From Darksidea phi (lineage: Eukaryota > Ascomycota > Dothideomycetes > Pleosporales > Lentitheciaceae), in the NCBI GenBank assembly GCA_030770425.1, contig JASJFT010000170.1, positions 1 through 64,000 on the forward strand: a DNA stretch of 64,000 nt, read 5' to 3'. Positions within the stretch are counted from its first letter, which is position 1, and every line of letters starts with the position of its first letter. Shown piece by piece: positions 17,708 through 55,945 of this stretch. Made by a program: the position numbers and the translations under genes. The notes below the pieces were generated by a model. That model was not told the origin of the DNA. It saw only the letters and a program-made list of their open reading frames with translations, and made no database searches.

Positions 17708-20700
17708 TCACACAACACCCACCATCTCCAACAACTCCCCGACCTCCTCAAGCACCTCCTGGACATCCCTCCCCGCATCAACAGGCACTACATCTGTCTC
17801 CATGACGCCTGGTTCCTCTCTGATCGCCAGCTGGCTCTCCACCATACCCTCCTTCATGTAATGCTCTCCCCTCCCTTGGATTCTCCTCACCAACTCGTCC
17901 TTCTCAATCTGCAAGTCTAAAAACGAAATGGCAACGCCGTCATGCTCGCGTTGCAGCTCGCGGAAGCGGTCTCGATACGCCCTTTTCAGCGCAGAGCACG
18001 ATACGAAGACTTTGTCGTGGCTGAGATGGGTAATAGTTTCGAGGGCGCGCTGCTTGAGGCGGTCTAGCCATGGCGCGCGATCGGTGTCTCCGAGGGGTGT
18101 GCCGGCGGCCATGAGGGAGACGGCGTCGGGACTGTGTAGCTCGTCGCCTTCGATGAAGGGCGCTTTGAACGTTGCGCTGAGGTGTTTGGCAATGGTGGAC
18201 TTGCCGCTGCCGCAGGGTCCGGCAAGAACGATGACCTGCTTCTTTGGAGGTTCTGCCGTTGATGGTTTCCATGAGTCGGTTTGGAACCGCTTGATGAAGG
18301 TTTTGACGAACGCTGCGTCAAGGGTAGGTGCATTTTCTAGAGAAGTTGACAAGGACCGTGCAAGGCTGGTTTCATATGTTCGCGATGGAGCGAATGTATC
18401 CTTGTCGTACTTGGAAGCAAAGAAGTCGACGAGCTTGATAGGCGGATTCGAAACAGCGTCTTCGTTCGACGCGCGGAGCCTCTTCACCCATTCTTTTGGC
18501 TCGAGCTCTTCAAAATCTAAGCCAGCTTGCCGCAGCGCGGGTAGGAGATCATCCGACCATGAAAAGGTCTTCGCGTTCGTGACATTGACGACGATGGATC
18601 CTGCATCGGAAAGCGAGATCTCCGTCACTGCCTTTGCCATGACATCGACGGGCGTCCAACTGGGCGACTCTTGCAGCTTCGGCAGCGCCCCGATGGTGAT
18701 GGCGGACTGCAGCATAAGCGGGATGGCCTCCGTGTCGTTCCACACGCCATGAACGGTGTCGGCCACGATCTGCCCAACACGTAGCACCCTAGCTTTGATA
18801 CCGGTTTTAGCCGCCGCCGCCATGCATATATGCTCAGCGACACATTTGCTTTGGGCATATCCCATGCCTTGCGCCCAGTCCAGTTCCGCAAGCCGCTCAG
18901 GCGTGGGGGCTTCAGGACATTTCGAGACCGTGCTGACGGACGAGCAGAAATCGAAAGAAGCAGGCTCCGATGAAGGCACCGCGAGGCAAAGGTTGAGAAG
19001 ATGTCGAACGCCGGCTATACAATCCTTCTCGAACGAAACGAGGCTTTTGTTGAAGTTCACGCTCCATGCGCAGTGGATGACGGCCACCAGATTCTTTGCG
19101 ATGGCCCGGTGTGTCTGACTGTTCAGCCCGAGGTAGGAATCCGACAGATCAGCGGCCAGGGCGTGGATCTTCCTGCGTGCTGTAAGCGACAACAGGTGAA
19201 AGATCTTGCGCTGGAAGAGGGATTGGCGAAGACGGCGTGCTGCATCTTTGTTGTCCTTCGCCCGTACTAGACAGTGGACGGTTCCAACGTCGGGGCGGGC
19301 TACGAGTTGGGCGAGAACATGAGCGCCGAGCGACCCTGTAGCTCCTGTAAGAACGACATCTGTTCTCGGGGCCGGCTTGAAGTTGCCGTATCGCTCGATG
19401 AGGTCCTGCATCTGTGTGGTGATCGATGCCTGTTCTTCATCTTGCCCTGTTCGCAGACTGTGCAGATGTGCGCTGAGTGCTGCAATGGACGGATACTCAA
19501 AGACGACATTCTGGCCAAGCTTGTTGCTACCAACATCGACTGTCTTTAAGATCTCAGTGCGTATTTGGATGGACTGAAGGGAGTCGAGGCCAAGAGAGAA
19601 AAGGTCCGCTGTCCTCTCGATGTTGCTAGCTTGCGGCAAGATCTTCGTCAAGGTACCGCGCACGAAGCTTTCCAGTTCAGGGAGTGTAAACGGACGAAGC
19701 TCGCCATGCGCTGTTGCAGTTTGATCATATGCGTTCTCGATCTCAGTGGCGAACTGGTGGTAAAACGCCTGCCTGACCACACTTCCCTTATCGGTTCGCG
19801 GAAACGGACAATTGTGGGGAAGAATCACGACCATGTCGCGCGATATCCTTGCGTACGCTTCGGCGATCCGATTTGCCTCTTCGAAGATGGGCCATATCTG
19901 GTCGACAATCTCAGGTGGCGACATGCCCTCAACAGCTGGACTTGGGACGACGAGTACACCCAGGTACGGGCGACCAGAGCCAAAGACTACGGCCTCCGTC
20001 ACAGCTTTGTTGGATCGTATTCTGCCTTCCATCATGACGGGGTTGAACTTCTCACCATTCACCAAGGCGATGGTATCATCGAGGCGCGCGATGTATTTCC
20101 ATGCTTTTTCAATCGTTGGGTGGGGCTCGAACATATCCTTCGTTGCATAGCTGCCGTCTGGTTGATTAGAGGCAACCTTGGCTGGCCAGCCGGGTAAGAC
20201 GGTGCACTCGTACAGATTGGGCCCGCACGGTATCCACCGGAGGAACGGGGAAAGTTTCGGCGTCTCTCGGACGTAATTCCAGTCCTTGTCACTCGCAGGC
20301 CGGAAAGATGTCATGAGTTGACCGACTTCAGTGCTGCCATGGAATTAGCACATCTTCACCCATTCTAGTTATAAATGACTCACGCTCCGTAATGGCCAAC
20401 GAGATTGACGCCCTTCTCCACTAGCAAGTCGCCCAGAGTATCTGGGCACGCACTACCGCCATACATGACGACCTTCAGTTGCTTCAGCAAATCGATGCCC
20501 TCATTTGTTTCGGCAAGCAACTTGAGGGCATACGGTACCCCATAGAAGATTTCGAAATTGTGCTTCTTCAATATTGTCACCAGATACGCTTGTGTGAGCG
20601 GGAGGTCCGCATTATAGATGTGAATTGATTTCCCGCTGTAGATAGCGCGAAAGAAGTTGCAGATGCCGTGGTTATGGTACAGCGGGAGGGTGATGAAGGC

Positions 20701-21469
20701 CCTCATTTCCATGCTTACGGAGTAGTTGGCGATGGCGCTCTTCTGTGGTTGGTATATGGGCTTTGGTAAGCCCGTTGAGCCTGGCTCGGAGCGATCAGTT
20801 GGAGCTAGATATCTTTAAAGTAGGCTGCGTACCGCTAGAGTGAATGATGTAAATGTTATTCGATGCCTCGATTGCTGGATCGAGCTGATAATCCATGCGA
20901 GTATCTGCATGGACGTCGATCGGGAAATTGTAGGTGCCGCTTCCTGCCATCTCGCTAATGTGCAAAAAGGGTTGATTTGCTTGGGCTTCGGCCGCCATCT
21001 GTAGCAGCTTCGTGTCTGCAAGGAGATAGGTAGCCCCGGTTGTTCTGATCAGCGATTCGACGGCCAACTGGGATATTCTTGTCGACAAGAACAATACTGT
21101 GTGACCCAGCTTGGTGAGAGCTAGCATTGTGATAAGGTAATCGAAGTTGCTCGGCCCGAGAAGCGCGACTGTGGTAGGCTTTTCTCTTGAACTGCTTCTC
21201 GTCGGAATGAAAGTTTGGTAGTGTCGTGCAACACGATACGCAAACACATCGAGTTGTTGCATCGAATAGTCGACAAATTCGACGCCCGAGCTAGGGTATG
21301 ATACAATCGTGGCATGAGGGTTGACGCGCGCACGATGCCGTATCAGCGCGTCGACTGTCTGTATATTGGTGTCATCGAGCTGTTGCATGTTTTGCCGCAC
21401 ATTTGATTGCACAGTCTGTGGTAGAGACTGAGGTGGAGCTGCCGGTACGGTCATCTGTATCGGCGCCAT
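17708..21469 (-). CDS. NRPS-like adenylation-carrier-thioester reductase fused to a gluconokinase-like domain
   Basis: Exons 21469-20833, 20780-20384 and 20333-17708; introns 52 and 50 bp. The sum is 3660 bp, giving 1219 residues. The start is the first ATG (MAPIQMTVP); the open frame further upstream begins at GTG. Domains are as follows. Adenylation, about 40-540, has IIHSSGSTGLPKP spanning the first splice site, HYGATEVGQL spanning the second, and RLDDTIALVNGEKFNP. Carrier, about 565-640, has LFSLGLDSLQ with Ser596 as the phosphopantetheine site. NAD(P)-dependent thioester reductase, about 670-1030, has TGATGSLG at 674-681, FCSSVS, and YAQSK with Tyr837 and Lys841. After a short linker (residues 1034-1042) a complete P-loop kinase follows: GPCGSGKST at 1050-1058, EGDELHSPD, AAGTPLGDTDRAPWL, SCSALKRAYRD and GRGEHYMKEG. 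These are the signature motifs of gluconate kinases. No stop or intron separates the two parts. NRPS-like A-T-R enzymes reduce carboxylic acids to aldehydes; the kinase role here is unknown. Confidence 0.9.
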
Positions 21470-21731
21470 GACTCTGGTAGGGTGTTGGATAAAGAGGACG
21501 AGGTCGTAAGAGTGTAAAGACTGAAATGAGCGTTTGACACATCGCGATAGATGTTCCTTTAGTACTAAGCTAAGTATGGAGAAGCAGTTGCACACAGCGG
21601 CTATCCGCGAGGAAGAACCGTAGAATGAAGAGGTGTGTATTGCAGGGTTCCTGCATATCCGGGCCTAGCTAAGCAGCGCCGGATTTTCAACCGATTTGTC
21701 CGGTTTATAATCCGATGAGATCCGGGCGCGC

Positions 21732-22015: not shown

Positions 22016-23835
22016 ATGACTCCGTCGATAGACAAGAACGAGATTCAGCATGTCGACGAAACAGCCGACTCTGTCCAAACATCTAAACCGCATCAAATCG
22101 TCCAGATTGACAACTTTCAAGTTCTTGGCCTTGATTCAGAGGATGCCGACTTCTACATCAACTACCCGGAGGAGAAGAGGAAGCGAGTGATCCACAAGGT
22201 AGATCTGTCTATCTCCGCGACTCACTGTCGCATCGCGCCAACATCACCTAGGTGGACATTCGTCTTGTGCCGATGCTGGCAATTCTCTACCTTATCTCGC
22301 ATATCGACCGAGCAAACATTGGGGTGAGTAGCAGCCTCATATTCCATTTGAGCCTGGCTAACACGACACAGAATGCCAAGATCGAAGGCATGGTCGAAGA
22401 TCTCGGACTCGACGGCGTGCAATGGAACGTCGCCTTGTCCGTGTTCTTCGTGCCCTACATTCTACTAGAAGTTCCGTCAAACATGTTGCTGAAGAGATTC
22501 AAGCGACCATCGTACTACCTCGGTATACTTATTGTTTGCTGGGGCATCGTGATGATGATGATGGGGGTGGTCAAGAACTTCACCGGGCTAGTAATCACTC
22601 GCATTCTTCTTGGAGTGTTCGAGTAAGCTCACAACCGCCCGCACGTCTGAGCAGCTGCTTACTGGACTCCAGGGCGGGATTCTTTCCAGGTGCCGTGTAT
22701 CTATGTGCGTACTGGTACATGCCAAGGGACCTCGCAACCAGAATCTCCTACTTTTACTGCGCATCGGCGCTTTCTGGTGCCTTCTCTGGTCTCCTGGCCG
22801 CGGCTATAGCGAAGATGGTAAGATATTAACGTATGAACGGTGTGTGAGACATCCGCTGACTGTATACGCTTAGGATAGCCTAGGCGGATACGAGGGCTGG
22901 CGCTGGATCTTCCTGCTCGAAGGTATTGTTACCGTTCTCCTCGGAGTGGCATGCTTTTTCTTGTTGATTGATTCACCGGCATTGAGTGGTAGATGGCTCA
23001 AACCTGATGAAATTCGCTTCCTCGAGCTGCAGAGATTCATCAAGGACGGCGGCAAGTTCACGGAGGAGAAGGAGGTCCACTTGCAGTGGAAAGACTTGAA
23101 GATGGTGCTTTGTAACTGGCGTCTGTATATGCAGGCATACATATTGCTTTGCATTTCAGCATGTTCATACGGTAGGCGATTCAAGTCAACTTGAATAATC
23201 AAGGCTAACCTGGAGCAGGAACAAAGTTTACCCTGCCCACGATTACGAAAGGGATGGGATTCACCAATACTAACGCGCAGCTAATGACCGTTCCTCCGTA
23301 TGTTGCAGGAGCCATCAGTTCGATTTTCTTCGCAAGGCTCTCTGATCGGTTTTACTGGCGTCTTCCGTTCGTTGCGATCCCATTGTGCTGCATCTGGATC
23401 GGCTATGCCATCATCACCTCCTTCGACGGCAACCTCAGAGCGAACTTCGGTCCCGCTTTCTTCGCTATCATCTTGACTTGCATAGGCATTTACCCTGTTC
23501 AACCTGCCGGAAGTTCGTGGGCGGCCAACAACCTTGCTCCATCATCTCGACGTGCCATTGGTGTTGCGTTCAACATCTGTGTTGGCAACATCGGTGGCGT
23601 TGTGGGGTCTTATATGTATCTGGAGTCCGAAAAGCCCAAATACTATACTGGATTCGGTCTATCGCTCGCCTTTGGCGCCACGGGTTTCATTGCCTCCTTC
23701 TTGTTGGAGCTGTCATACAAGTGGGGGAATACGAGGAAGGCAAGGCTGACCGAAGACGAGGTGAGGGCCCAGTACACCGACGAGGAACTGTTGAGCATGG
23801 GCGACAAGTCGCCATTGTTCCGATACACACTCTAA
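22016..23835 (+). CDS. MFS permease, DAL5/TNA1-like anion:cation symporter family
   Basis: Six exons: 22016-22198, 22252-22323, 22372-22622, 22673-22817, 22874-23171, 23219-23835. The introns are 47-56 bp and every junction keeps the frame (1566 bp, 521 residues). The N-terminal cytosolic tail is followed by RLVPMLAILYLISHIDRANIGNAK, the hallmark of the allantoate/nicotinate permease group. Then come WNVALSVFFVPYILLEVPSNMLLKRF, GVFEAGFFPGAVYLCAYWY, a cytosolic central loop, GYEGWRWIFLLEGI, and six further helices with FFARLSDRFYWR and AGSSWAANN. It ends ELLSMGDKSPLFRYTL. These carriers import organic anions and vitamins at the plasma membrane; the substrate here is unknown. Divergent transcription from the NRPS-like gene and closeness to a regulator suggest a cluster transporter. 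Confidence 0.9.
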
Positions 23836-23962: not shown

Positions 23963-26131
23963 TTAAGATACATCGTTCATCCATGCAAGAGTCATATTAT
24001 CAGACTCTGGAAACGGCGCGAACGCAGAGGAGTCCAACTGAAGCCAATCAATAGTCTGCCAGTCATCTAGGAAGTTTTGTAATCCTGGTGCAGCAGTGTC
24101 GATAGGGCTTCCGAACAGCGGCTGCCACATCGGTATAGCCGCATCCGGGCCATGCTCTAGGTGATCATCCATCAAGTCTTGATTGCCGCCAACGGGAGCT
24201 GCGGATGATGCTGGCATCATATGCGCTTGCTCTAGTATAGGTCTCGCCGTCTTTCTTTTGGCCTCAGCCCGAAGCTCTTGTAGAATGATGCTGTATCTAC
24301 GCGATGGGGAATTGGAAGCAGTTGCTTGCGCAAGATGTTGTAGGCAACGTTCAGCTTGGTCAAGGATGGTGCGGCGCTCGTCTAGTGTGGTGCTGTTGTT
24401 GCTTTCTTGTATGGCCCACACGTAGACGATCACCAAGGCGCAGAAGCAGACATAGTGCGTCCACCAGAAGGCATGAAATAGACGTCCTTCTCGGGCCATG
24501 CGATCAACAGCTTCCAGTACAGACTGCGCAGCTGAAATGCACTCAGAGCGGCCTTCCCTTGCTAGACTTCCCAACTCGTTATTGTTGCGTGTTGTGCTCT
24601 TCAATAGAAACGGACGGTGAGCTAGCATAACGGCATGGCAGTAAGATAGCTTCAAAGCTGTAGCTTGTCGTCGGAAACTGGGGATGAGGCTGCTGGGGTT
24701 GATGGCGCCAAGGAAAGGTGGCAGCAATGCTCTCCACTGGCGTAGTTCGGCACCTAGCCGGTGAGACGCTGCAAGACGCACATGATCCGGTACTAGTTTG
24801 ATGGAGTATACTTGACGCGAGATTTTCTCAGCGATCTGAGCGAGCTTGGCGTGAAACACCAGCGAGTCGATGTGGCAGTCGTCAGTGCCGCTTAGCTGCG
24901 GACCAGAGCTCGTCATGTCTTCATCGTTGACCGAATCTGGAAAATCTTGATCGATGTCGTCGTCGTGGTAATGTTGCGGACGCCCAAATATTACACCGAG
25001 GTACTTGTCGAGCGTATAAGCAACCCAAAATACTCGCTTCCTGCATTGTTCCTCGATATAGTCGCGTCTGTGGGATGTTGGTGGCCGCTTGCGATCATCT
25101 CTTCGATGGAGACCAAGCGCTGAGATGATCTGTAGAGTATGACCGAAGGTATACCAGGCTTGATTGAAGCGAGATGACATTAAGAGATAAAGCACCTGGA
25201 TAAGTCGCGATTGGGCCGACTCTAATCTGGCAATACCGGTCTCCCCTTCGGTGAGACGGGAAGACTCGCAAAATAGCTCGTCGCTCAATGACTGCACTGC
25301 GTCTTCGTCTTCCTCTGCATTGACGGGGGACACACTGCTACTGCCTCGTGCCTTTTCCTCGTGGAAAGAGGCAACGGCAAGCACTGATAGCACGACGGCA
25401 GCCTTTGCGTGTCCAAGTCCGAAGGACAAGGGCCGGTTGAGTTGAGCATTTTGCGAGACTTGGTCGAGCCACGATTCCACGGTGGTCCTATGAAGGAGTC
25501 TGTATGTCGCGATGCAGACGTCGAAGTACATGGTGAGCAGGCCGCGGCTCTTGCTCAGGGATGGCATTCGCATCTGCCCCGTTTGCTGGAATGGCTTGTC
25601 GCCGGCGCACGCAAGAAGCTGGTTGTCCTCGACAGATCCCGGCTGGCCGTTTATAACTTGGCTGTTTTCGTTGTTTGAAATCCGGCGCCATGCACGATGC
25701 AGAAAAGAAAGACCAGACGTCGGGTCTGCGTACTGGCCAGCGACCTCTAGGCCTGGCGAGCCGCAAGTCGCAACATCTTGCGCCGTTTCACTGCCCCTGG
25801 ATCGCGGTGCTATCGATGGAGCACCCCGTGCGCGAGGTTGCTCGGCGCCCGTATGTTCGATGCGGCGCGGTGATGGTGCCTTTCCTCGCGAGTAGACAGC
25901 CTCATATCGACACTGCAGTCCTCGGCGGTTGCAGCTGGCGCATGGCTGCTCACCCGAGCACTTCGATTTCTTTGCCTTGCAGATGTCGCAAGCCCTCGTT
26001 ACCCTAATTTTCTGCCGGCTCCGCTTCTGCGGGATCAAACTGCCGCCAAGTTGTGACTGTAAACCCGGGACGGAGGCGATGGCGAGTCCGTGGGGCGATG
26101 CATGCTGCTGTGCGAAGGGTTCCGTGGCCAT
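23963..26131 (-). CDS. Zn(II)2Cys6 transcription factor with fungal_trans domain
   Basis: Intronless, 722 residues, starting at the ATG at 26131 in perfect context (GCCATGG). The open frame extends to 26284 but begins there with GTG, so I use the ATG. The zinc cluster RACDICKAKKSKC...CASCNRRGLQC places six cysteines at 48, 51, 58, 64, 67 and 74 with spacing C-x2-C-x6-C-x5-C-x2-C-x6-C. A basic linker (YSRGKAPSPRR) follows. The middle homology region has TYRLLHRTTVESWL, KRVFWVAYTLDKYLGVIFGRP, YCHAVMLAHRPFLL and WWTHYVCFCALVIVYVWAI, as in fungal-specific transcription factor domains. The C-terminus is acidic/aromatic (FLDDWQTIDWLQLDSS), a likely activation region. It lies between the MFS and aldo/keto reductase genes, so a pathway-specific regulator is the natural reading (inference). 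Confidence 0.9.
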   Translation of the reverse strand: MATEPFAQQHASPHGLAIASVPGLQSQLGGSLIPQKRSRQKIRVTRACDICKAKKSKCSGEQPCASCNRRGLQCRYEAVYSRGKAPSPRRIEHTGAEQPRARGAPSIAPRSRGSETAQDVATCGSPGLEVAGQYADPTSGLSFLHRAWRRISNNENSQVINGQPGSVEDNQLLACAGDKPFQQTGQMRMPSLSKSRGLLTMYFDVCIATYRLLHRTTVESWLDQVSQNAQLNRPLSFGLGHAKAAVVLSVLAVASFHEEKARGSSSVSPVNAEEDEDAVQSLSDELFCESSRLTEGETGIARLESAQSRLIQVLYLLMSSRFNQAWYTFGHTLQIISALGLHRRDDRKRPPTSHRRDYIEEQCRKRVFWVAYTLDKYLGVIFGRPQHYHDDDIDQDFPDSVNDEDMTSSGPQLSGTDDCHIDSLVFHAKLAQIAEKISRQVYSIKLVPDHVRLAASHRLGAELRQWRALLPPFLGAINPSSLIPSFRRQATALKLSYCHAVMLAHRPFLLKSTTRNNNELGSLAREGRSECISAAQSVLEAVDRMAREGRLFHAFWWTHYVCFCALVIVYVWAIQESNNSTTLDERRTILDQAERCLQHLAQATASNSPSRRYSIILQELRAEAKRKTARPILEQAHMMPASSAAPVGGNQDLMDDHLEHGPDAAIPMWQPLFGSPIDTAAPGLQNFLDDWQTIDWLQLDSSAFAPFPESDNMTLAWMNDVS

Positions 26132-26413
26132 GGCGGACACGCAGAGGCAAAATCCGGGGATGGAGGAAACCTGGGGACGGGAGATGGAACGAATAAGAGC
26201 GGTTTCCGGCAGAGGCGGGGTAGCGGCAGTGGAGCGCTCCTGCCATCCCGATATTTCCGCCCCGGCCGTCGCACCTTCCGCCACTCCATTTCCGTGCCTA
26301 CCAACAATGGAGTGGAGTACTCATGGCCATCACAATGTCCTCGATTGTCCTTGGAACGACCGTCTGCTTCACTTCACATCTTTCCCACACCTTGACCGCA
26401 CTTCATCGGAACC
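26132..26413. promoter_or_regulatory. Divergent intergenic region, regulator and aldo/keto reductase
   Basis: Only 282 bp separate the two start codons, so both genes must share promoter sequence and 5' UTR space. No clear TATA box is visible. Confidence 0.4.
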
Positions 26414-27437
26414 ATGCCTATCGCCACACATTTCACCCTCAATACGGGCGCTCAGATACCTGCTGTCGGCTTTGGCACATGGCAGGCGAAGCCCGGCGAA
26501 GTCGAGCACGCCGTGGAGACTGCACTCAAAGCTGGATACCGTCACCTCGACTGCGCTGCCATCTATCGAAACGAAGTGGAAGTAGGTGTTGGCATTCAAA
26601 GAAGCGGCGTTCCTCGTTCCGACATCTTCATCACTAGCAAGTTGTGGAACACCAAGCACGCGCCAGAAGATGTAGAGGCAGCGCTCGACAGGAGCCTGCA
26701 GGACCTCGGGGTTGAGTATCTTGATCTTTTCCTGATGCATTGGCCTGTGTAAGTCAGAGTATCCTCACCGGACCGTCTCATGTATTCATACGCGCAGTGC
26801 ATTTAATGGCAAGAGTGGCAAATGGTTCCCATTGCGCCAAAACGGCGTCTTCGACCTCACCAACATCGACCCCGCCATAACCTACAAGGCCATGGAAAAG
26901 CTCCTCTCAACCGGCAAAGTCCGCGCAATCGGTGTCTCAAATTTCACCATCAACCGACTCACCGACCTGCTCTCTAAGACGACTGTTGTGCCTGCTGTCA
27001 ATCAGGTCGAAGCGCATCCCTACCTTCAACAGCCCGCGCTCTTTGACTTCTGCAAGAGCAAGGGTATCATCATCGAAGCTTACTCGCCGCTCGGTAACAA
27101 CCAAACAGGTGAGCCACGCACAGTCGACGATGCGCTCGTTGGTGTACTCGGACGGAGGCTAGGTATGGACGGTGGGCAGTTGCTGGCGAGCTGGGGCATT
27201 CAGCGCGGTACTGTCGTGTTGCCGAAGAGTGTAACACCGAGCAGGATAAAGAGCAATCTGCAGGTCAAGGAACTCCCGAACCATGCATTTGAAGAGCTTA
27301 ATGCATTGGAGAGGCACAAAAGGTTTAATGTGCAGTCGCGTTGGGGTTTCGATATTTTCGAGGAGCTTGGAGAGGAGAAGGTGAAGAAGATCGCGGAGGA
27401 CTGCGCAGAGGAGAATCTAGAGAGGTTCACTATATAG
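26414..27437 (+). CDS. Aldo/keto reductase
   Basis: Exons 26414-26748 and 26798-27437 with one 49-bp intron (GTAAGT...GCGCAG). 975 bp, 324 residues. A standard (alpha/beta)8 NADPH-dependent carbonyl reductase: VGFGTWQ at the N-terminus and the complete catalytic tetrad Asp46, Tyr51 (DCAAIYRNE), Lys76 (TSKLW) and His109 (LMHWP). It also has [24 protein letters not shown] and the cofactor-clamp region [15 protein letters not shown]. The length is typical. It reduces aldehydes or ketones to alcohols, or the reverse. Beside an enzyme that should release an aldehyde, reduction of that product is a fair hypothesis. It is transcribed divergently from the regulator. Confidence 0.92.
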
Positions 27438-28105
27438 TTGGGAGAGAGTTAAGTTGATAGAATTCTTAAAACATTTACGCGTCGGCGTACGAAACAAATG
27501 TACAGCATCTGTCCGGTGATGTGGCCAGTTGTCGGGTCGAGATGTGGCCGAGCCGCTAGAATCTGATTATTACTTGATAGCGTTGGGCTATTTTGACTAC
27601 AAATGCAATGATTCTGACCGAACATTTTGAAAGATGGTTGCATGTCTTGTCCAACGTACCAAGCAAATTTTCTAATAGATGTACACAATATGTCAACGTC
27701 GCGAAGCACCACTCGTTGCATCCACAAAGGTAAGCCTTGTATAAGGAAACAAACTCTTTCTTTGTGTCTTTTTATTGGATTCAGATGTTGGGTTCGGAAT
27801 CTTCCCACAGACCAGAAAAGCGGTGAGAACTCGCAGTGAATAACCAGGCACGTGACCGCGCGTCACCGCTGAAACCGATAAGTTTCTTTTGATCCGCACC
27901 ACTTTTGAATCAATACGCGGTCTCACCTTAACATACACAAATAGAGGTGCGCTCTCAAGGTATTTGGGTCCCCCACTTCCGTAAACAAGACTGCGATTGC
28001 GAAACATAGCCTCCGCTGCTTCACCGCGCAAACTCGGACTTACGTGTGTATAGCATTAACTATCTCGGCGAGCAGGTGAGATCCTGTACCATACGCCCAA
28101 CTGCA
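27438..28105. other. Intergenic region
   Basis: 3' flank of the aldo/keto reductase and the upstream region of the next gene. The open frames present are motif-free. The sequence around 28060-28085 (ATCTCGGCGAGCAGGTGAGAT) could hold a 5' UTR splice donor. Confidence 0.4.
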
Positions 28106-29917
28106 ATGGAGAACATGCAGTCCAACGCTACGCCCTTCTTCCCGCCCGAGATGCAGGGTAGCCAGCAAATCGACCACCCGAACCTCCAGCAGTCCAATCC
28201 GAACGGCCAGCGAAGCCATGGCCATGGAAACAATGGTCGCGGGCGCGGAAACTCCAAAGGCAAGAACAAGCGTGGAGGAAAGGCCAACAATGGCGCTACT
28301 AACAGTCGTGCCCAAGGCTATCCTGGAGGCGGATATGTCCAGCAACCCCAGTCGGTGTCCAATGACGTGAACTGGACACAGATGCCTGCTGGCTATGGTA
28401 TGGCAAACACCACGATGCCTTTCCCGCCACCAGTAGCACCTGTCGGTATGGTCTCAGGCCTGAATGCTCCCTTCACTGGCACGCCACCGATGCCAATGGC
28501 TCGCATGAGCAGCTTCGGTAGTGTTGGAGTTTCGGGTTCGCGATCCAGCAGCTACACTACCAACCCCTCTCCTCGCCAATTCACTCCGACGCTACACGCA
28601 CCGACTCCGCAGCGCCATGCAAAGATCGTGAACAACCCTTACAATTTGACGGCGAACAATGCGGGACCGCCTAAGCCGATGAGTGTTGCGCCGACGTATT
28701 CCGCGACACCGTCGATGCTGAACGTACCGAAGCGAAACGTGTCTGAAGGCGCTCGTGCGGCCTCTGTCGATATCTCCGGTGTTACTTCGACCATTACTTT
28801 TAACCCGGATAGGCAGAACACTGGCGAGAAAGATGAGGAGAAGCGGGAGCCGCATAACCCATACGCGGATTACAGCGCTCTCCAGCACCTTGCGGCCTTG
28901 TCCGCCACTGCCCGACACAGCATGATGGAACCCCTCGCCGACCATCGTACAGCGCACCTCGAAGCCCAAGAAGCCATCACGGTCAGGCGCACCGAGATCC
29001 TCAATGTCCTCGGTAACTATATCTCCTCCGAGCGCCGCCACGAGAGCTGCGCTCGCGAGTACCAAGACCTAGTCGCCACGAACCTTGAGCTCGCAGTGAA
29101 GCACCCTCCTGGTGATAGCAAAGATAAGCACCTGCAAGCCGCGGCGTATAGTATGCGCAAGGCATCCGAGCACTCTACAAAAGCTTTGGATTATTGTGTT
29201 AGTGTGGCTAGGTATAAAGATATGTTGGAAGAATTGAACAGAGAGGCTGTGAAGGCGTTGGAGAAGTGGTATGAGGGGATGCACAAGGAGATCGTGAGGG
29301 TGCTTGAGAGTGCAGTGGCGCCGATCGAGAAGGAGGATGAGCAGCGGAGTCAGAGGGGGATGAAGGAGTGGCAGGAGAGATTCGATGCTAATCTTGCAAG
29401 CCAGAAGACAGAGAAGGAGGAGCTGAAGATGAAGCTGACTGATGAGAGCAAGAAGGCGAATGAGGGTGTCAAGATGGACAGCCGCCAGAGCTCAGTGGTC
29501 GATACCGATGTCAAGGCAGCTGACCTGACGACGGGCGAAGACAAATCGTCCTTCCAGAAGGCAACAGCTGAGCCGTCTAGAGATGGCAAAGGCCATCTAG
29601 ACGAGGGCCAGCAAACCTCTAATGCTGCTTTCGCCAATACTGAGCAACCCGACGCCGCTGCTAAACCTAAGAAAAAGAACAACAAATCCAAGGCCTCCAG
29701 GAAGAAGAAAGGCGGCATGGACTCCGGGACATCTTCCTCAGCCGCCTTGAACGAGCTCAAGGACAACAAGGGCCCGGAGAACAAGGTCTCGGAGAACAAG
29801 GTCCCGGAGAAGAAGGGCAGTGTCGACTCCCGCGCTTCATCAACTGCACCCAAGAATGAGAAGAGGGACCAGGGCCAAATCCGGAGTCAGGAGAAGGCGC
29901 AGGGTGGTAAGACTTAG
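28106..29917 (+). CDS. Unknown low-complexity protein with RG-rich N-terminus and Lys-rich tail
   Basis: The intronless open frame begins at GTG (28046), so the first ATG at 28106 is used: 603 residues. The N-terminal 250 residues are Asn/Gln/Gly/Pro-rich with a basic RG segment (NNGRGRGNSKGKNKRGGKAN), typical of RNA-associated disordered regions. A helical middle (about 265-450) contains HPYADYSAL-like 'HNPYADYSALQHLAAL', RRTEILNVLGNYISSERRH and long Glu/Lys-rich stretches with coiled-coil character. The tail is Lys-rich (KPKKKNNKSKASRKKKGG) and includes a short triple repeat (ENKVSENKVPEKK). No secretion or membrane signal. I do not recognise the family; an RNA- or ribosome-associated role is a guess from composition. 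Confidence 0.75.
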   Translation: MENMQSNATPFFPPEMQGSQQIDHPNLQQSNPNGQRSHGHGNNGRGRGNSKGKNKRGGKANNGATNSRAQGYPGGGYVQQPQSVSNDVNWTQMPAGYGMANTTMPFPPPVAPVGMVSGLNAPFTGTPPMPMARMSSFGSVGVSGSRSSSYTTNPSPRQFTPTLHAPTPQRHAKIVNNPYNLTANNAGPPKPMSVAPTYSATPSMLNVPKRNVSEGARAASVDISGVTSTITFNPDRQNTGEKDEEKREPHNPYADYSALQHLAALSATARHSMMEPLADHRTAHLEAQEAITVRRTEILNVLGNYISSERRHESCAREYQDLVATNLELAVKHPPGDSKDKHLQAAAYSMRKASEHSTKALDYCVSVARYKDMLEELNREAVKALEKWYEGMHKEIVRVLESAVAPIEKEDEQRSQRGMKEWQERFDANLASQKTEKEELKMKLTDESKKANEGVKMDSRQSSVVDTDVKAADLTTGEDKSSFQKATAEPSRDGKGHLDEGQQTSNAAFANTEQPDAAAKPKKKNNKSKASRKKKGGMDSGTSSSAALNELKDNKGPENKVSENKVPEKKGSVDSRASSTAPKNEKRDQGQIRSQEKAQGGKT

Positions 29918-30771
29918 GGGGCTTGTTTACAGCGCGCTTCTTCCTGAGAAGAACCGGCGAGCATGATCAACAGGTTCGCAGAGCTGCATTGCTTCATCTT
30001 CAATGTTGCAGAGCACTTCTAGTGATAATGTTGATGGTTTTCGCATATGGGTTGGTTAGGTGGCGTTCGGACCGAATCCTGGATAGATTAGATGAATAGG
30101 CCCGAGCACAATGGGTATACTAGACAGCAATGCCGTAATTATGATGGTGACAGCTGAAGTTGCTAAACAGGTGCGAGTCTTAGAGGTGGTTTGGAGGAAA
30201 TGGCGACATGACTTGTGATTTAATGCAGTCGCTGAGGTTGTTGTGATGGAAAGCACGCATTGGTTGATTGGCCTACCAAGTACTCGGCCGCCGTCAACGA
30301 GACTCCTCAATGCCAACCATGACCGGGGCCATCAAGCAAACAGAGACTTCCATCAAAATCGAACCCCTCGGATATTATACTCTCGTCGCAATGCTTCTCT
30401 TTGACAGTCTAGCCATGGCATCAGCTTGCTCGTCGCGTCGCGTCTCGCGTGTCGCAATGTCGACCAAACCTTCCAACGCACATATAATGAACTTACGACA
30501 TGATCATCGTGCGATCGTGAGAGTGATAAAATTCGCATGATGTAGGTTTTCGAAACAATGGACGTTGAGATGGTGCTGCTTCTGTTGCTGAGCGTTGGAG
30601 ATGTGGGGTCTACTCCGCATTGTGGGGAAGGCGACCCCTGCATATCTAGGTCCGAGTCTGCAGCTTGCCGTGTCTTTCTCCCATATAGGCCTTACGATTC
30701 CATGTATTTATCTAACTCCTTAGGAAATTATAAGCTTATCTGAAAGTCTTGCCGTTTTATCAACTGCCACA
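29918..30771. other. Intergenic region
   Basis: No supported gene. The short open frames lack motifs. The last 100 bp before 30772 is AT-leaning with TATTTATCTAAC, the probable leader of the VAO-type gene. Confidence 0.5.
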
Positions 30772-32622
30772 ATGCCTCCATCTCTAGCGTACAAGAACAC
30801 TGAGTACCAATCCACCCACTACAACCTCTTCAAGGACTCCATCACCGTTCCGCTCAAATCCGTACTGCCGCCAGGTGTAACGCGCTATGCCTTCGACGCC
30901 GCCATATTGCAGTACATGGCCATCGTTGGCTATGAACAGGTTCTCCTTGGCGATGCCCTGACCGAATACATTGATCCGTATGAGCTAGGTGCTGAAGAGG
31001 GAATCAGAAAAATGCCCAGTGCAGCAGTACGACCAAAGAACGTGGAAGAGATGAGAAGAGTATTAGCGGTTTGCAATGAATACACGATCCCGGTATGGAC
31101 GTTCTCGAGAGGGAAGAATCTAGGATATGGAGGACCTGCACCACGGGTTAACGGCTCGGTGGCGCTGGATCTGCATCGGATGGATAAGATTATTGAAGTC
31201 AATGAAGAGTATGCTTACGCTGTTGTTGAGCCCGGTGTTACCTTTACGGAGCTGTACGAGTACTGTGTCGCGCACAAGCTCAAAGTATGGCCTTCTGTGC
31301 CTTCGCTGGGTTGGGGATCAGTCGTAGGGAATACGCTGGACCGGGGCACGGGCTTCACGCCGACGGCAACGCACCATCAGCATATCTGCGGCCTAGAAGC
31401 TATGCTTGCAAACGGCGAGCTTGTACGGACAGGCCAGTTCGCCGTCTCTGGTTCGCCTTCCTCTCACCTCTCCAAGTTCACATTCGGGCCCAGTATCGAG
31501 GGGCTCTTCCTTCAGTCTAACCTCGGCGTCGTCACCAAGCTCGGGATATGGCTCACCCCCGCTCCGCAAGCGTTCATGTCCTGCTCCTTCGACATGCCTG
31601 ATTTTGAAGACCTGGAGACGATCGTCGATGTGTTCGGTCCGCTGCGGCGAGATGGCTTACTCCCCAACACAGTCTACGTCTCCAATATCACCGAGTGGAT
31701 TAGCATGGTCGGCCAGCGCGACGAGTTATGGCCGCAACCGGGTCCCATACCCGAGTGGCGCTTGAAGGAACTCCAGGCACAACTCAACTTCGGATACTGG
31801 AATGCGAAATTTGGGCTGTATGGGGCTACAGATGTGGTGCAGGCGCATTTCAACGAGTTGAAGAAAATTGTGGCCAAAAAGCTGCCGAAGGGACGACTCA
31901 ACGGCGAGATCTTCAGCGCTGGAGAGGGAGAGACTTTAGATCCTGCGTCGATTCCTGATCCCCACGGTGGATTCTTCGTCGGTGTCCCAAGCTTGTGGAG
32001 TCTGCCGATGGTGAAATTTCGACTACCAAAGGACGGGGGCGGGATAGGTGCGCATTACGATTACAGTCCGATCATACCGTCGAATGGGAAGGCTGTTCTG
32101 GAATGGGTAAGGACAGCGAAAAAGTACGTTCCGATCATTCTCTTTTTCTTCTTACAACATAGCCATGTATGATGATACGTGTGAAGCTAACCGCAAACCC
32201 AGAATTACCGAAGCCGAAAACTTCGACCTCTTCTGCGACTTTTTCATGCACGAGCGCCACGTCATTTTCGTCAACATGATGTCCTTTGACAAAACCAACG
32301 TCGCACACCGGCAAGCTGTGCAAACAATCTTCCGCAATCTGTTTGAGGAGGGCAAGAAGAGGGGGTATAGCAAGTATAGGAGTCATATAAATACCATGGG
32401 TCAGTCCATTCAATCCGGCTCCTCTTATACTAAGACTAGCACATGCTGATGGGGTTTATAGATCTCGTGGCGTCACTGTATGATTTCAATGATCATGCAT
32501 ACCGGAGGTTCGTAGAGACCATCAAGGATGCGTTGGATCCAAAGGGTATTTTGAGTCCGGGGAAGCAGGGTATCTGGCCAAAGAGGTTCAGAGAGAATGA
32601 GAAATTGAAGGCGCATTTGTAG
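30772..32622 (+). CDS. Vanillyl-alcohol oxidase family flavoenzyme
   Basis: Exons 30772-32123, 32203-32399 and 32462-32622; introns 79 and 62 bp. 1710 bp, 569 residues, close to the 560 of Penicillium VAO. PCMH-type FAD domain: FSRGKNLGYGGPAPRV, YAVVEPGVTF, LANGELVRTG, IEGLFLQSNLGVVTKLGIWL. C-terminal cap: FGLYGATDVV, GVPSLW, GAHYDYSPI, KYRSHI, DALDPKGILSPGKQGIWP. Aligned from memory with VAO, the flavin-linking His422 matches His428. Phenolate-binding Tyr108, Tyr503 and Arg504 match Tyr119, Tyr509 and Arg510, while Tyr187 is Phe195 and catalytic Asp170 is Ser178. VAO enzymes oxidise para-substituted phenols such as 4-hydroxybenzyl alcohols, making H2O2. The changed residues suggest altered substrate or rate. 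There is no obvious signal peptide; VAO itself is peroxisomal/cytosolic. It could serve the neighbouring cluster, but one unrelated gene lies between. Confidence 0.92.
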
Positions 32623-54131: not shown

Positions 54132-55945
54132 ATGGGCGGACAGGACCACCCAAAACTGACATTGCGCGAACGATGCATGTTGCATTTCATTGACCAAATC
54201 ACAGATAAGCCAATGTGGACTCAGAAGGTTTTTGATGAAGAGATTGTCGGTCAATGGAAAAAGGAAGCATGTACTAAGCGTTGGTATGAGGAATGGGAGG
54301 ATGTACAGGAGGATGAACTGAGCGATGGAGATGGGGATTGGGACGAAGATTTTACAGAAGAAATGTTCACCTTTGTGAGTCGATCTAACGACTATGCAAT
54401 GCATGTGCTAATCAGTTCATAGTGCATCCAGGAGGTCCGAGAGAAGGCTGCATTGTACGAGAAGTTCTCTATAATCCCGGTGTTCGACGTGGCATCGTGT
54501 GTGTTGAAATCCGATAGCGCCATCCCACCAAATCTTAAACAAGAACTCCGGAGCGCTGTTGCCCGCCTCGAAGATGTCCCCGATGGATACAAGGATTGGC
54601 GCCCGGGCTCCGATGGAAGAGTGCTTGATCTCGTAGATCCATCGCTCTTCCACTTGCATATGGTCGGTCAAGAATCCTGCCCAATTCAACGATCGATTTG
54701 GAGAACTGCCTTCAAAGTATCGGTGAAGGTAATACCATACCAAGCCCAATGGAGGAATGGAATATCTATCGCCATGACCGCTTCATCTCCTACCGCTTCC
54801 AGTGGTTACCATGCAATGTCTCTTTTCCCAATGGACTCGCAAAGATTGATTTATACATCAACAATCTCCATCCCCGCGACCATCGAGACCTCTATCACGT
54901 CGTAGAGAAAGTCATCGACAAGGCTGTGCCGTTCTGGAACATCATGTGCCAGTCTCATCGCAATGGCCGTATCACTAGAGATCCGAGGATATGCCGTCCA
55001 CTACGAGACCCGAGGATATGCCTTCCACTACGAGACATCTATGCAAGTTGCCTCGAGGATCGGAACCTAATTCAGATACCGGAAGCCCCAGTTGGCAACG
55101 ACTCACGGGTTATCGACAAAGGCGGGCCTGGAGAATTCGACCAGCTTATGTTGAAGAGTGAGGACATCGAGGATAAGTTCGCCTTCCTCGGTAACGGAGA
55201 TAAGAACCTCCAAGTCATCGTCAAGCTTGCGAACATCTTACTCACGCCCGACAAGCCAGATTACGACTGCAACGATTGGTAAGTGATTCCAGCTGTACCT
55301 GTGCGTATGGTTACGAGAAACGTGTAGGGGGAAATCGCTAATGTCTCGTTCTCGTTTAGGCATCTCGACGGCCACCTCAATGAGCACATAGTCTCCACGG
55401 CCATTTACTACTACGTCAACGAGAACATTACCGACTCTCGTCTTGACTTCTGCACCAACTTCAACAATGATATTTCGGAATCGCAAACTTGGAGTCTCGA
55501 CCAGCCCAGCCCAGAAGATTTCGACGAGATTTTCGGCTCCCGTCGGGCCGTCATGGACATCGGTTCCGTCCTCGCGCGTGAAGACCGCTTCATCGTTTTC
55601 CCCAATAACTTTGGGCACCGCGTAGGCACATTCAAGCTCGCCGACCCTACCAAACCTGGACATCGGAAGATTCTAGCGCTGTTGTTGGTAGCGCCCGAGG
55701 ATCCAGTTATCTCGACGGCCAATGTGCCACCACAGAGGATGGATTGGTGGCTGAGGGAGCTACCAATTAAGGAGACGCGGCTGCGGGCTCTGCCGGTAGA
55801 GCTACTTGAAATGGTTGTCGAGGGCGCGGGGTTTCCGATTTCGATGAAGGAGGCGAAGACAATCAGACAGAAGCTAGTGGAAGAAGCAGCCCCGATGAAC
55901 ATGGGAGCAAAAGATTGTATCGCTAGAAAGTATCTCACTCGGTGA
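54132..55945 (+). pseudogene. DUF4246 protein gene with a single frameshift
   Basis: Exons 54132-54374, 54423-55278 and 55360-55945; introns 48 and 81 bp. Characteristic DUF4246 segments are present: TLRERCMLHFIDQITDKP at the N-terminus, VLKSDSAIPP, WRPGSDGRVLDLVDPSLF, QWLPCNVSF, LQVIVKLANILLTP, HLDGHLNEHIVSTAIYYY, NITDSRL and ADPTKPGHRKILALLLV. Around 54655-54660 the frame slips: DPSLFHL is in one frame, but YGRSRILPN and ENCLQSIGEG continue in the next. The coding length is 1685 bp, one base short of a multiple of three, so a one-base deletion explains everything. A 27-bp tandem duplication at 54983-55036 adds nine residues. Otherwise the gene looks intact, so it may be recently broken, or the slip may be an assembly error. 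DUF4246 function is unknown. Confidence 0.85.
54983..55036. repeat. 27-bp tandem duplication in the DUF4246 gene
   Basis: CCGAGGATATGCC(G/T)TCCACTACGAGAC-type unit twice in a row with one mismatch; adds nine codons in frame (DPRIC(R/L)PLR). Confidence 0.9.

Follow-up and report, generated by a model that had tools for sequence, protein, structure and literature searches.

Fungal ATRR enzymes have the domain order A-T-R1-R2, and the NPS10 type is tied to them. ATRR-type enzymes are NRPS-like proteins of glycine betaine metabolism (PMC11050029). Like the protein described here, they carry one extra C-terminal catalytic domain behind an A-T-R core; in their case a second reductase takes the place that the kinase has here. 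An assignment of our protein to the NPS10 type was considered and set aside; the words 'kinase' and 'gluconokinase' are absent from the accessible part of PMC2823734. The fungal A-T-R carboxylate reductases, such as the Neurospora crassa CAR, share with our protein the order adenylation (A), carrier (T) and reductase (R), and differ from it in the kinase. The R domain of A-T-R enzymes requires NADPH, and 'kinase' is a word absent from the main text of a 2022 survey that covers 84 fungal carboxylate reductases from seven clades (PMC9605436). The GntK/IdnK-type gluconokinases (1knq and the free fungal enzymes) resemble the C-terminal part of our protein in fold, P-loop and most conserved residues. 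The kinase studied here differs from them in being fused to a reductase, in having both Asn47 and Leu141 (E. coli GntK numbering) changed, and in falling on a separate branch of the kinase tree.

The combined architecture has been in print since 2014. AFLA_054270 of Aspergillus flavus (1251 amino acids) was tabulated as 'A-T-R-gntK' in SMURF cluster 18, where a transcription factor also appears; A. oryzae and A. parasiticus have counterparts, and the RPKM values are 0.0-0.3 over four species or strains (PMC4073137, Table 2). By the table row alone, the domain order and the length of about 1200-1250 amino acids are as in our protein; that row gives no function, product or activity. An earlier note on this DNA, which knew of no described enzyme with this architecture, was mistaken on this point: databases also already label such proteins 'gluconokinase', 'Adenylate-forming reductase Nps11' or 'nrps-like protein', and records of the family are filed as 'male sterility protein' as well. 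Neither a functional study of an A-T-R-gntK fusion nor a paper on paired acid reduction and phosphorylation by one such enzyme was found in the searchable literature, most subscription journals lying outside it.

The window, that is the whole stretch of DNA that was analyzed, comprises 64,000 nucleotides of a Darksidea phi contig (JASJFT010000170.1). Its fused gene and the genes beside it are listed in Table 1.

Table 1. Features of the fused gene and its neighborhood, in window coordinates.
Feature	Position	Strand	Basis
Three-exon gene, 1219 amino acids plus stop, two short introns	21469..17708	-	predicted gene model
Exon 1: N-terminal adenylation domain (AMP-binding)	20833..21469	-	gene model; PF00501 match to enclosing ORF 20795-21664
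Intron 1, 52 bp, GT..AG	20781..20832	-	splicing restores HSSGSTGLPKP
Exon 2: remainder of adenylation core	20384..20780	-	gene model
Intron 2, 50 bp, GT..AG, GCTAAT branch-like site	20334..20383	-	splicing restores HYGATEVGQL
Exon 3: last part of A domain, then T, R, linker and kinase within a single open frame including stop	17708..20333	-	
AMP-binding_C_3, C-terminal adenylation part	19718..20080	-	E 2e-45 (Pfam)
PP-binding carrier domain (GLDSLQ)	19463..19663	-	E 1.1e-7 (Pfam)
NAD_binding_4 thioester reductase, TGATGSLG and YAQSK	18626..19351	-	E 8e-47 (Pfam)
Linker, end of R (..FQTDSW) to kinase, without methionine	18245..18268	-	
GntK/IdnK-type P-loop kinase domain	17741..18232	-	NCBIfam; sequence and structure matches
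MFS permease exons, divergent from fused gene	22016-23835	+	
Zn2Cys6/Fungal_trans regulator	23963-26320	-	
Aldo/keto reductase	26396-27437	+	
635-amino-acid open frame between aldo/keto reductase and FAD oxidase, no Pfam match	28010-29917	+	
FAD_binding_4 oxidase	30724-32172	+	

Both splice joins were picked by eye, using GT..AG borders and the conserved AMP-binding motifs, and the resulting exon/intron model agrees with the coordinates and the 1219-residue length given in the earlier note. Reductase and kinase are encoded in the single exon 3, in which the reading frame from the first ATG is 868 amino acids long. A chance open frame is ruled out by the odds, about 2e-15 for 876 open codons at the exon's base composition (about 1e-3 for the last 178 alone), and by the retention of the fusion in relatives.

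The order of the adenylation, carrier and NAD_binding_4 reductase domains matches that of fungal A-T-R carboxylate reductases. The carrier serine (GLDSLQ) and the TGxTGxxG and YxxxK motifs of the reductase are all present (residues 593, 674 and 837), and the core residues are invariant in a 35-row alignment. In the structure predicted for exon 3 (mean pLDDT 85.1, pTM 0.65), the R domain matches that of the Neurospora crassa carboxylate reductase (8aep, 26% identity), and the reductase also matches MxaA (4u7w). The substrate of the A domain leans weakly towards an acid other than an amino acid, because in eight of the nine whole family members scanned with NCBIfam, TIGR01733 for amino-acid adenylation (65-83 bits) scores lower than the best model of an acyl-CoA ligase, all of these scores being far below the models' own cut-offs. 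The exception is P0103, with the amino-acid model slightly higher (80.3 versus 78.8 bits); of the window gene itself, exon 3 was scanned.

The C-terminal domain scores 153.1 bits against TIGR01313, the NCBIfam model of GntK/IdnK-type gluconokinases (cut-off 113.75). Three solved gluconokinase-type proteins were matched by its sequence (1knq, 3t61 and 4eun), and the fold in the exon 3 model agrees with two of them, at TM 0.87 for 1knq (by target length), which we take to be the E. coli gluconokinase, and 0.80 for 3t61. Comparison with a library of viral structures gave nothing of use. Averaged over blocks of ten residues, model confidence is 76-93 pLDDT across the kinase and 60 in the linker block (residues 681-690 of the model).

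The fusion of an acid reductase and a kinase is real, and it is widespread in filamentous fungi. When relatives were sought with the A-T-R part, with no selection for a kinase, 106 of the best 120 of 1420 matches also carried a near-complete kinase match, so that the in-frame fusion proposed in the earlier note is borne out and the homologues are not always two separate genes; conservation in this many fungi argues that the fusion is not an annotation slip. A search with the kinase part considered candidates of 477-1519 amino acids (best 120 of 128 listed), and free kinases could not appear in it because of this length range. The listed matches of both searches together form a family of 157 proteins. 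Fusions are listed from Cucurbitaria (Pleosporales, Dothideomycetes), Colletotrichum (Sordariomycetes) and Cadophora (Leotiomycetes), that is from three classes, and also from Verticillium, Microdochium, Chaetomidium and Trichoderma.

The other 14 of the 120 listed A-T-R relatives lack all or part of the kinase. The match is without the P-loop part in one (P0152), three end shortly after the P-loop (P0127, P0131 and P0136), and ten have no kinase match at all. These ten are two Boeremia exigua proteins, five named records of 1041-1075 amino acids (two from Biscogniauxia and one each from Camillea, Pseudomassariella and a Xylariaceae species) and three metagenome ORFs, whose ends near the junction could be intron or assembly effects. 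The named kinase-less relatives (P0124, P0128, P0135, P0137, P0143, P0146 and P0147) span 1017-1075 amino acids. Biscogniauxia belongs to the Xylariales and Pseudomassariella to the Amphisphaeriales, both within the Xylariomycetidae. With the kinase missing, shortened or altered in several relatives, the A-T-R part can evidently dispense with it.

In a tree of kinase sequences (55 of the 144 listed fused kinases, 28 of the 112 listed free fungal ones and 17 bacterial), the fused kinases sampled group on a single branch with an SH-aLRT support of 96, the free fungal ones on another with 99 and the bacterial ones on a third with 89. In the A-T-R tree (48 of 139 rows, midpoint rooting only), rows with no kinase or with a multiply changed one are scattered among kinase-bearing rows, and this interspersion suggests one gain of the kinase followed by several losses.

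Domain content and residue patterns incline us, a little short of an even chance, towards an old bifunctional enzyme of filamentous fungi that would reduce an acid and add phosphate to a hydroxyl group on some related compound, gluconate being an improbable acceptor. The A domain would activate a carboxylic acid with ATP and the phosphopantetheine carrier would retain it as a thioester, which the R domain with NADPH would convert to the aldehyde or on to the alcohol. The GntK-type kinase would then use ATP to phosphorylate a hydroxyl on the substrate, the product or a partner compound of the same pathway. Reduction would thereby be coupled to phosphorylation, with both halves serving one pathway; a tailoring or coupling role for the kinase, as the earlier note proposed, is plausible. 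More tentatively, a carboxylate reductase with its own kinase, its acceptor being other than gluconate, may act twice on one molecule, by reduction and by phosphorylation, and so yield a phosphorylated aldehyde or alcohol. If the kinase does act on the substrate or product of the reductase, fungal carboxylate reductases would gain phosphorylation as a further reaction, and the fusion would point to a metabolite common to many filamentous fungi. The kinase-less relatives offer a natural comparison. In public databases this widespread fusion, whose active-site residues are conserved, meanwhile goes by 'gluconokinase' or 'male sterility protein'.

It is unlikely that the kinase serves chiefly as a structural or regulatory element (for ATP sensing, stability or docking), with catalysis secondary or lost. 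Its absence or alteration in several relatives would fit such a role, as would its lower conservation: over 73 members of 1150-1300 amino acids, mean identity to the window protein is 52% in the kinase, 65% in R and 73% in A. The kinase residues argue the other way. We tested 13 positions chosen as catalytic or GntK-typical (Lys21, Gly39, Asp40, His43, Arg62, Trp65, Ser88, Leu90, Arg95, Arg120, Arg124, His127 and Gln137, with Tyr also accepted at 43), and 125 of the 144 listed fused kinases, from three classes and with the window protein among them, keep all 13, which would be unexpected for a pseudo-kinase. The set of 144 consists of the 147 family proteins with a kinase match, minus the four short matches (P0127, P0131, P0136 and P0152), plus the window protein. 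Among the remaining 19 are proteins from Trichoderma in which several of the residues are altered. In three Trichoderma proteins (P0112, P0113 and P0115) and in P0151 from Trichoderma aethiopicum, two to four of the 13 residues are changed, and in these the kinase is possibly decaying.

A kinase that is still a gluconokinase would make 6-phosphogluconate, from which 6-phosphogluconate dehydrogenase would supply the reductase with NADPH. We judge this quite improbable, even though the R domain needs that cofactor and the TIGR01313 score, the fold and the 13 tested residues all agree with it. Against the equivalog gluconokinase models the domain reaches 106.5 bits, far from the cut-off of 265, though these models were built on bacterial proteins. 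The earlier note saw every gluconate-kinase signature in the domain, and all the motifs that it quoted are indeed in the translation, but two positions shared by nearly all the free gluconokinases in the comparison are changed. Asn47 is found in none of the 144 listed fused kinases (Ala in 118, Ser in 17, Asp in 7 and His in 2), compared with 111 of 112 listed free fungal ones and, in two bacterial sets, 17 of 17 and 24 of 28. Leu141 survives in 8 of the 144 but in every free row, 112 fungal and, in the two bacterial sets, 17 and 28. Both are lost in 136 of the 144 listed fused kinases and in none of the 157 free ones (0 of 112 fungal, 0 of 45 bacterial); the window protein has Ala at the first position and Arg at the second. 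Positions 47 and 141 may contact the acceptor, which has likely shifted away from gluconate; a literature search for residues that bind gluconate yielded no source on their placement.

The free fungal rows in this comparison are the best 120 of 6160 matches, minus three of the fused type and six shorter than 180 amino acids, plus the copy from the window genome. The first bacterial set (n = 17) holds 16 of 19 loci that could be parsed by motif, together with 1knq; the wider control holds 28 parsed of the 30 best loci above the family cut-off in 120 genomes of one phylum, and one gene (L018 in one set, L033 in the other) is counted twice among the 45 rows. Because the bacterial rows were parsed by their P-loop and acidic-GD-xx-H motifs, the conservation of these two motifs there is partly by construction. 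To call Asn47 invariant across gluconokinases would be too strong, as 4 of the 28 wider bacterial rows lack it, and for the same reason its loss alone is no proof of a new acceptor.

The gluconokinase reading is further weakened by the existence of a separate gluconokinase gene. A six-frame search of the window genome found only one other gene of the kinase family, a free gluconokinase in two exon pieces on a different contig. Among the matches listed, at least 12 species, matched by species name and not by strain, have both a kinase-bearing fused protein and a free gluconokinase: Ophiobolus disseminans, Bimuria novae-zelandiae, Periconia macrospinosa, P. digitata, Curvularia kusanoi, C. clavata, Macroventuria anomochaeta, Ascochyta clinopodiicola, Stagonosporopsis vannaccii, Didymella pomorum, Dendryphion nanum and Pleomassaria siparia. 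In these fungi the free gene is another candidate for the ordinary gluconokinase job. Within this group the fused kinase has changes at 7 of the 13 tested residues in Bimuria, at one in Pleomassaria and at one in P. macrospinosa.

We give little weight to the proposal that the joined halves serve unrelated steps and gain nothing from the fusion except co-expression. A linker that varies from 14 to 32 residues between the Trp and the P-loop (119 members) and is modeled with low confidence would be compatible with it. The presence of the join in three fungal classes speaks against it, though unjoined neighbors can also be co-regulated.

An annotation or assembly artifact, in which two adjacent genes were read through as one, has next to no credibility: three proteins (P0122, P0123 and P0253) do end or begin at the junction, but the read-through is contradicted by the single exon, by the same join in 106 of the 120 best-listed relatives, and by the lack of a start codon for the kinase, the nearest methionines being residues 910 and 1086 with none between, so that no ATG beyond residue 910 could initiate an intact kinase, whose P-loop starts at 1050. 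P0253 itself is a metagenome ORF with a fused-type kinase and only the tail of a reductase, a split or frameshifted copy; since its contig is 264,848 bases long, split copies may occur.

Returning to the bifunctional enzyme that we favor, its gene may be part of a pathway cluster with the neighboring permease, regulator, aldo/keto reductase and FAD oxidase. The MFS permease is divergent and its first ATG (assumed at 22016) lies about 546 bp from the start of the fused gene, and the two may therefore be driven from one promoter region. Elsewhere in the window, two adjacent frames at 54629-55945 on the plus strand match DUF4246 and are probably two exons of one gene.
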